A stretch of DNA of 64,000 nucleotides from Methanosphaera stadtmanae (lineage in GTDB: Archaea > Methanobacteriota > Methanobacteria > Methanobacteriales > Methanobacteriaceae): NCBI GenBank assembly GCA_015062805.1, contig SUTQ01000001.1, positions 220,547 to 284,546 of the forward strand, in the 5' to 3' direction. A program made the position numbers and the translations under genes. Positions 33,531-35,941 of this stretch are shown one piece after another (positions within the stretch are counted from its first letter, which is position 1; each line of letters starts with the position of its first letter). A model generated the notes under the pieces. It was not told where the DNA came from. It did not search any database and saw nothing but the letters and a program-made list of their open reading frames with translations.

Positions 33531-35720
33531 TTAGTTATATGACACTAATTCATTTTCTTTTGTTGGTTTCACTTTTTTCATGGCTTTTTCAAATTCTGAC
33601 ATGTATACTTCTTCTGATTCAATATCTTCTCTTAAGGTTAACATTACTGCTTCTCTGCATACTGCTTCTATATCTGCACCTACGAATCCTTCTGTTTTTT
33701 CAGCGAGTTCTTTGATATCTACATCTTCAGCTAAAGGCATATCTTTGGTATGTACTTTGAATATGGCTTCTCTTGATTTTACATCTGGTAATCCTACTTC
33801 CACATGTCTGTCAAATCGACCAGGTCTAAGAAGTGCTGGATCGATGATATCTGGTCTGTTGGTTGCTGCTATTACTGAAATATCATGTAACTCTTCCATA
33901 CCATCCATTTCCGTTAATAATTGGTTAACTACTCTTTGTGTAACCCCACTATCTAATGAATCGCCCCTGGTGGATGCAATTGCATCAATTTCGTCAAAGA
34001 AGATAACTGTTGGGGCAGTTTGTCTAGCTTTTCTGAAAACTTCTCGGATACCTTTTTCAGAATCACCAACCCATTTGGATAAGAGTTCAGGTCCTTTTAC
34101 AGAGATGAAGTTAGCATCACTTTCATTTGCTACTGCTTTTGCAAGTAATGTTTTTCCAGTTCCAGGGATACCTGTTAATAATACACCTTTTGGTGGTGTG
34201 ATGCCAAATTTTTTGAATTTGTCAGGGTTTTTTAAAGGCCATTCTACAGCTTCTTTAAGTTCTTGTTTTGCTGCAGATAATCCTCCAACATCATCCCAAC
34301 TAACGTCAGGTATTTGGACTAACACTTCTCTTAAAGCGGATGGCTGTATTTCTTTTAGAGCATCTTTGAAGTCATTTTTGTTTAGAACCATTTTATCAAG
34401 AATTTCTTGTGGAACTTCTTTGTCTGTCTGAACTTCTGGTAATACTCTTCTAAGTACTCTCATTGCAGCTTCTTTACATAGGGCTTCTAAATCGGCTCCA
34501 ACAAAACCATGAGTAACTTCAGTAAGATCATCTAAACTTACATCTTCAGCTAATGGCATGTTTCTGGTGTGAACCTCAAGAATTTCTTTTCTTTCGTCTT
34601 TGTCAGGTACTCCTATTTCAATTTCTCTATCGAATCTACCTGGTCTTCTTAAAGCTTCATCTATAGCATCAGGTCTATTTGTAGCTCCAATTACTACTAC
34701 TTCTCCTCTACTTTTAAGACCATCCATTAATGTTAAAAGTTGTGCAACAATTCTTCTTTCTACATCACCAGTAACTTCTGCTCTTTTAGGAGCTATTGCA
34801 TCTAATTCGTCAATAAATATTATTGATGGGCTATTTTCTTCTGCTTCTTCAAACAATTCTCTTAATTGTTCTTCTGAACCACCAACATATTTACTCATTA
34901 TTTCAGGACCGTTAATTACAATAAAGTGAGCATTAGTTTCATTTGCCACAGCTTTTGCAAGTAATGTTTTACCTGTTCCTGGTGGGCCATGTAATAAAAC
35001 TCCTTTTGGAGCAGAAATTCCTAATTGTTTGAATAATTCTGGTCTTTTTAACGGAATTTCAACCATTTCTCTTATTTTTTTGACTTCATTTTCAAGTCCA
35101 CCAATATCTTCATAGGAAACGTCTATGAGATTTTCTACACCTTCAAATTTATTTGGATCTACTGGTTTGGTTTCCATTTCAATTTGTGTATCTTCTGTAA
35201 TTTTTACTGGACCTAGAGGTTTTGTATTTATTACAGCTAATTTGATTTCACCAATTGATGTCATGTTTGTCATCATTTGATTAAAGAAATCATCGAACAT
35301 CATGTTTGGAGTTTTTGGTTGTTGTCTTCTGATACCTGTAACAATAATGTCTCCTTTGTTAACTATTCTATTCAAGAATACTCCATTTAAGTTTCCTTGA
35401 ATTGCAATTTCTTGATCTACTGGAGCCAATTTTACTTTTTTTGCTTCTTTGATTTGAGCTTTTCTAATTGTTACTTCTTCGCCTATAGATGTTCCTGCAT
35501 TTTTTCTTAGGTAACTATCAATTCTTAAAATTCCTAAACTTGCGTCAGCTTGTGATGCAACAACAGTGGCTGTTGTAAGTTTGTTTCCTTCAATTTCTAT
35601 TACATCACCATCTTTTAAGCCTAAACTTTCCATACATTTAGGATCTATTCTTGCAACGGATCGACCTATGTCTGATTGGGAAAATGCTTCTGCTACTTTT
35701 AATTTTAATTCATTTTCCAT
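33531..35720 (-). CDS. cdc48: CDC48/VAT-family AAA ATPase
   Basis: 729-residue unfoldase, hexameric, that delivers substrates to the proteasome. The N-domain (~1-185: double-psi barrel [21 protein letters not shown]...) is followed by D1 with Walker A GPPGTGKT (~242) and Walker [15 protein letters not shown], and D2 with GIPGTGKT (~517), [15 protein letters not shown] and the [14 protein letters not shown] sensor region. The D2 P-loop has Ile where Pro is usual. GGAGGAGATA precedes the ATG. The promoter carries operator-like sites described separately, so heat-shock control is possible. Confidence 0.96.
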
Positions 35721-35773
35721 ATTATCTCCTCCATTTTTTTTAATAAATTATTAGATAAGATTGATTTTTTTAT

Positions 35774-35786
35774 TTACTTTTTGTAA
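35774..35786. promoter_or_regulatory. TTAC-N5-GTAA site overlapping the cdc48 transcription start
   Basis: TTACTTTTTGTAA lies 22-34 bases after the inferred TATA box, where archaeal heat-shock repressors bind. The AC-N5-GT core is shared with the second site. Seen directly; role inferred. Confidence 0.5.
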
Positions 35787-35807
35787 TAATAACTATATTT
35801 TATTTAG

Positions 35808-35816
35808 TATATAAAG
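35808..35816 (-). promoter_or_regulatory. Probable cdc48 TATA box
   Basis: On the minus strand, ACCTTTATATAC combines BRE-like ACC with TTTATATAC, ~90 bases before the ATG. It predicts transcription start near 35785 and a leader of about 65 bases. Confidence 0.5.
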
Positions 35817-35851
35817 GTTACTAAAATATTCTATTAACATTTTTATTTTAA

Positions 35852-35864
35852 TTACTTTTGGTAA
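35852..35864. promoter_or_regulatory. Second TTAC-N5-GTAA site upstream of cdc48
   Basis: TTACTTTTGGTAA, differing from the first site only in the last spacer base and so a near duplicate. It is upstream of the TATA box. A weaker third copy with a six-base spacer (ATACTTTTCGGTAA) is at 35891-35904. Confidence 0.45.
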
Positions 35865-35941
35865 TTATAATTATCAATGTTTTAATATAAATACTTTTCG
35901 GTAAATCTTTAAAAAAATAAGAGGGTAAAATCCGGATGTAA

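Follow-up and report, generated by a model that had tools for sequence, protein, structure and literature searches.

Duplicated palindromes at the cdc48 promoters of Methanosphaera as predicted operators of a Phr/HSR1-type repressor

The whole stretch of Methanosphaera stadtmanae DNA analysed here (64 kb; referred to as the window) carries on its minus strand a gene for a CDC48-family AAA ATPase, the protein of which shows 99% identity to its counterpart in Methanosphaera sp. Tb.RUG.228. The features of this gene, the putative target of control, and of the intergenic region upstream of it are as follows, with operator scores in bits.

33531..35720, minus strand: cdc48, the putatively controlled gene, encoding a CDC48-family AAA ATPase of 729 aa (NCBIfam TIGR01243, 1064 bits; Pfam CDC48_N and two AAA domains)
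35721..35941, no strand: intergenic region upstream of cdc48, 221 bp, AT 0.837 (ORF map; composition)
35768..35792, minus strand: putative operator O1, TTATTATTACAAAAAGTAAATAAAA, with a perfect core at 35774-35786, where transcription from promoter P1 is expected to start (19.1 bits under a matrix that included cdc48 sites; conserved among the aligned Methanosphaera sequences)
35802..35826, minus strand: imperfect putative operator TTTTAGTAACCTTTATATACTAAAT, over the BRE/TATA of P1, 34 bp from O1 (10.7 bits)
35808..35815, minus strand: TATA box of promoter P1, TTTATATA (sequence and conservation)
35846..35870, minus strand: putative operator O2, TTATAATTACCAAAAGTAATTAAAA, with a perfect core at 35852-35864, where transcription from P2, the upstream promoter, is expected to start (25.9 bits)
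35886..35893, minus strand: TATA box of promoter P2, TATTTATA (sequence; conserved in relatives as CGTAAAGTATATATA)
about 35895-35904, minus strand: BRE of P2, ACCGAAAAG (sequence)

The TTAC-N5-GTAA core is present twice upstream of cdc48, as TTACTTTTTGTAA at 35774-35786 and as TTACTTTTGGTAA at 35852-35864, just as the first-pass annotation of this DNA had claimed. O2 is the top-scoring match in the window (25.9 bits) and still reaches 19.9 bits when both the cdc48 sites and the source genome are kept out of the matrix training. Read on the cdc48 strand, the order is TATA2, TTACCAAAAGTAA, TATA1, TTACAAAAAGTAA, ribosome-binding site and ATG. Both palindromes have the form ATTAC-MAAAA-GTAAW, which is of the TTAC type rather than the TAAC type, and O1 ends in GTAAA, which is off consensus. 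At both P1 and P2, 31.5 bp separate the centre of the TATA box from that of the palindrome downstream of it; the operator would therefore overlap the predicted start, and the two promoters are in equal register, 78 bp apart. With each palindrome at this distance past its own TATA box, the region has the appearance of two promoters in tandem, and it looks as if one operator lies at each expected start. The earlier statement that the copies lie around the TATA box, with the first at the expected transcription start, holds, with not one but two TATA boxes present. What it also proposed as a "weaker third copy", near 35892-35904, turned out to be the BRE/TATA of P2 and has no operator score; the true third, imperfect site is TTTTAGTAACCTTTATATACTAAAT on the minus strand at 35802-35826, which overlaps the downstream BRE/TATA.

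In an alignment of 11 Methanosphaera sequences, almost all keep the downstream copy and most keep the upstream one. Of 17 Methanosphaera genomes, 16 have one or more intact sites in the 230 bp before cdc48. AACCTTTATATACTAA, which lies in the imperfect P1 site, is nearly invariant across Methanosphaera. The cdc48 upstream regions of other genera were scored against a 99% shuffle threshold using a matrix that had seen no cdc48 sites. In genus g4 the site was above threshold in 9 of 15 genomes, most genomes carrying GTTACAAAAAGTAAC or a near variant downstream of the cdc48 TATA box, and sites above threshold were also found in genera g11, g14 and g17. The cdc48 upstream regions of genera g10, g16, g2 and g9 scored below threshold, though most have phr sites, indicating that control of cdc48 would not be universal. 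The motif is conserved in relatives, so that absence of conservation, which had been named beforehand as a ground for refutation, does not apply, and the suggested control of a Cdc48-type AAA ATPase is supported in silico by sites upstream of cdc48 both in Methanosphaera and in several other genera. In distant archaea, a loose motif scan upstream of cdc48 matched 4 of 69 loci, which by a rough estimate is no more than chance; within this chance-level total are GTAACTTTTGGTTAC in a member of the Bathyarchaeota (L030) at -58 from cdc48 and CTAACTTTAGGTTAG, of the HSR1 box form, in a member of the Marsarchaeota (L048) at -46.

A search of the source genome for ArsR-like domains, which yielded 12 HTH_20-like matches, identified the following candidate regulator.

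G000:C15:37001-37504, divergent from grpE-dnaK: Phr homologue of 168 aa (L189)

The best solved relative of this protein is Pyrococcus Phr (PDB 2p4w, E 2.6e-23 over residues 2-92), and its GQKA..HL helix and RGRPRKYY wing match 2p4w; it thus belongs to the ArsR-type winged helix-turn-helix proteins, like the regulators of Phr/HSR1-type regulons. The NCBIfam Phr model NF053602 matched the N-terminal half only (E 8.1e-28), at 97 bits against a curated cut-off of 320 bits, and the C-terminal half showed no match to Phr, so that the protein is to be regarded as a homologue that differs in its C-terminal half and not as a member of the same curated family. Homologues are present in 76 of 80 Methanobacteriaceae genomes, divergent from grpE-dnaK where seen. 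A second Phr-like gene in one genome (G008:C12:220-717) has two in-frame TAA stops and is apparently broken.

The phr-grpE intergenic region of the source genome contains GTAAC-CCTAA-GTTAT and GTAAC-CTAAG-GTTAT (GTAACCCTAAGTTAT and GTAACCTAAGGTTAT). The AAC-N5-GTT core of the HSR1 box is present here and family-wide, whereas the cdc48 sites of the window have TTAC-N5-GTAA and share only AC-N5-GT with it; GTTAC/GTAAC half-sites are present at phr in L202 and L203. The operator form in Methanosphaera is about TTTTAGTAACCTWAGGTTAYWAAAA, and one to four GTWAC-N5-GTWAY sites are found upstream of phr in nearly every genome read. Multiple sites at phr-grpE in nearly every genome of the family are the usual mark of autoregulation, and the repressor is predicted to be autoregulated through operators at its own promoter in nearly all genomes. 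The first-pass annotation had assigned the cdc48 palindromes to the Phr/HSR1 operator type by their AC-N5-GT core, and this assignment is strengthened by the finding that the same genome encodes a Phr homologue with HSR1-form sites at its own promoter. Among non-Methanosphaera genomes, 91 of the 125 strict GTWACMAAADGTWAY matches listed are at most 1 kb upstream of phr and a further 11 are upstream of cdc48, and the remaining listed matches include two before psmA and three before grpE (g3 genomes). Since the strict-motif total is not far above the reversed-pattern control, the evidence rests on the placement of these matches.

Further putative targets were sought with two matrices. Matrix A, built from the phr-grpE and cdc48 sites and scanned over 18 Methanosphaera genomes, gave sites before psmB (9 genomes), lon (7), psmA (1) and a gene for an orphan protein of 75-78 aa; in the source genome the scores were 17.6 bits for psmA, 17.4 for psmB, 17.7 for lon and 19.2 for the orphan. 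Matrix B, trained solely on phr-grpE sites of other species, was used to rank 167 upstream regions of the source genome, a partly selected set since L274-L276 were chosen by motif match and L294-L297 as candidate targets; ranks 1 to 5 were grpE (26.0 bits), phr (26.0), cdc48 (19.9), psmA (17.7) and lon (16.0). Rank 6 was the region common to the orphan gene and a divergent 205-aa gene, and psmB followed at rank 8 with 10.1 bits, the 95th percentile of the 167 regions being 6.7. The psmA site was found in 3 genomes belonging to three genera, including G024 and G049 outside Methanosphaera. In the source genome, where a single hsp20 was found, the matrix scan gave no site before that gene, the best-known Phr/HSR1 target, nor before either of the two thermosome genes. 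Thus, of the genes before which the motif had originally been expected, the proteasome genes psmA and psmB carry it, and hsp20 and the thermosome genes do not. In G019, a second ArsR-like gene (L273 1154-1459, minus strand) lies between the operator and lon.

Overall, the sequence evidence makes it highly probable that the cdc48 palindromes are operators of an autoregulated winged-helix repressor of the Phr/HSR1 type, the predicted regulon of which takes in GrpE/DnaK, Cdc48, Lon and the 20S proteasome but not Hsp20. An alternative is that the palindromes arose by chance in AT-rich DNA. Perfect TTAC-N5-GTAA occurs 4 times in the window, against 1.48 expected from dinucleotide shuffles, the remaining two copies (33779 and 51736) being intragenic. 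When 20,000 intergenics were simulated on the model of the 221-bp cdc48 intergenic itself (AT 0.837), one or more perfect copies appeared in 0.7% and two in none, and the initial remark that two copies within 80 bases are notable stands. A chance origin would agree with the lack of genome-wide enrichment over the control, both of the bare pattern (71 vs 82 for the reversed pattern) and of the IUPAC form RTWAC-N5-GTWAY (70 vs 97), but it is contradicted by the simulations, by the cross-species conservation and by the strict matches, the great majority of which are at phr and cdc48; a chance origin is thus extremely unlikely. The bare pattern was rejected as a regulon finder, its 71 matches not exceeding the control and most of those examined being intragenic. 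Random placement genome-wide, the other ground for refutation named beforehand, is what was found for the bare motif but not for the extended one, which is highly specific; as the bare pattern does not define the regulon genome-wide, this criterion needs the extended motif. A search for TTACAAAAAGTAA with up to one mismatch found perfect copies only upstream of cdc48 and of one MATE transporter; the latter copy (L084 1501-1513, source genome) lies before a MatE-family gene, and its flanks fit the extended motif poorly. The sequence GTTACAAAATGTTAT, recurrent in several Methanosphaera, lay within coding genes wherever read and was rejected.

The palindrome might also be a core-promoter or start-region element, such as an AT-rich initiator, since the Methanosphaera cdc48 palindromes are A-rich and keep a constant distance of 31.5 bp to the centre of each TATA box. 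However, nearly all of the 167 upstream regions of the source genome lack the motif, the spacing is not fixed in genus g4, where the site is about 44 bp from the cdc48 TATA box, and at grpE one site overlaps the TATA box itself, so we regard such an element as very improbable. Somewhat less remote, though still unlikely, is that the operator belongs to another winged helix-turn-helix protein, either one of the ArsR-like L187, L188 and L190 or the ArsR gene before lon. The 12 HTH_20-like matches in the source genome and the ArsR gene between the site and lon in G019 speak for such a regulator; against it, phr-grpE alone carries several sites in almost all genomes of the family, no high score was obtained upstream of the remaining candidates in the ranking of 167 regions, and a clear Phr match was seen only for L189 among the candidates read.

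At the grpE promoters of other genera, operators occur in pairs 33-36 bp apart with one on the TATA box; in genus g4, one operator runs into the TATA box and the second lies about 35 bp downstream. Similarly, P1 of Methanosphaera cdc48 has a near-invariant TTTTAGTAACCTTTATATACTAAA over the BRE/TATA, lacking one core G, with O1 34 bp downstream, and an operator pair at this position would explain the unusual conservation around the P1 TATA box. One operator over the BRE/TATA and another over the start would fit a repressor that blocks the loading of initiation factors and polymerase. We propose that a repressor dimer would bind GTWAC-N5-GTWAY and block TBP/TFB or RNA polymerase loading at cdc48, that stress (presumably heat or unfolded protein) would release it, and that release would jointly induce Cdc48, GrpE/DnaK, psmA, psmB, Lon and the repressor gene itself; we infer binding, repression and the heat signal from homology to Phr and HSR1. 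Matching sites stand at the cdc48, phr, DnaK, proteasome and Lon genes, and thus seem to be switches of a single protein-quality-control regulon.

The HSR1 box of A. fulgidus is CTAAC-N5-GTTAG, and HSR1 is autoregulated and has an AAA ATPase target (PMC9133787; for the latter two points also PMC10653856). The Methanosphaera sites are likewise palindromes with a 5-base spacer and an AC-N5-GT core, the phr sites GTAAC-N5-GTTAT having the full AAC-N5-GTT, and autoregulation and an AAA ATPase target are predicted here too. In contrast to HSR1, the half-sites at cdc48 are TTAC/GTAA, the regulator is encoded divergently from grpE and not in an operon with hsp20, and the predicted targets are grpE-dnaK, psmA, psmB and lon, with no site at hsp20. 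P. furiosus Phr is reported to block RNA polymerase recruitment, and its site consists of TTTA/TGGTAA/AAAA within one 29-bp element (PMC9133787; PMC10653856). Shared with Phr are the homologous ArsR-type DNA-binding domain, a site over the start (predicted here), a GTAA core and an AAA ATPase target; unlike in the Phr system, the C-terminal half of the regulator is not alignable, hsp20 is not included, and the sites are separate palindromes of 15 bp, often paired at a distance of 33-36 bp. In the bacterial HrcA-CIRCE system, the repressor gene is linked to grpE-dnaK and palindromic operators lie over chaperone promoters. The likeness to this system is an analogy of layout only, the repressor gene standing beside grpE-dnaK, whereas the protein family is unrelated and the CIRCE palindrome is different and longer-spaced.

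Very few systems of archaeal heat-shock regulation are known, the dedicated ones being Phr and HSR1 of hyperthermophiles, the regulons of which omit key chaperones such as the thermosomes (PMC10653856). The same type of regulator is predicted here in mesophilic gut methanogens, over bacterial-type DnaK/GrpE together with Cdc48, the proteasome and Lon; the cis-element and the protein are thereby defined, and the promoters open to direct testing are few. The literature searched contained no description of this regulon, which may nevertheless have been published before. More tentatively, and with somewhat less than even confidence, we suggest that one Phr-type repressor in gut methanogens, paired with grpE-dnaK in an HrcA-like manner, could act as a proteostasis switch for DnaK/GrpE, Cdc48, the 20S proteasome, Lon and the orphan protein of 75-78 aa; such a switch would leave out Hsp20 and the thermosomes and might include feedback by chaperone titration.

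The orphan protein has no Pfam match and was found with a putative operator upstream in three Methanosphaera genomes, at the following places.

L274 785-1018 (source genome, contig C37), minus strand: orphan 75-78-aa protein
L285 830-1054, minus strand: orphan 75-78-aa protein
L293 1146-1373, plus strand: orphan 75-78-aa protein

In the source genome, the orphan gene is also preceded by a cdc48-like TTTTAGTAACCTTTATATACT element. The predicted operator would tie this protein to proteostasis, and it is possibly a small proteostasis protein itself. In addition, a perfect match to the operator, TTATAGTAACAAAAAGTTATAAAAA, lies before a ferritin gene in G067 (L360 around 917, minus strand).
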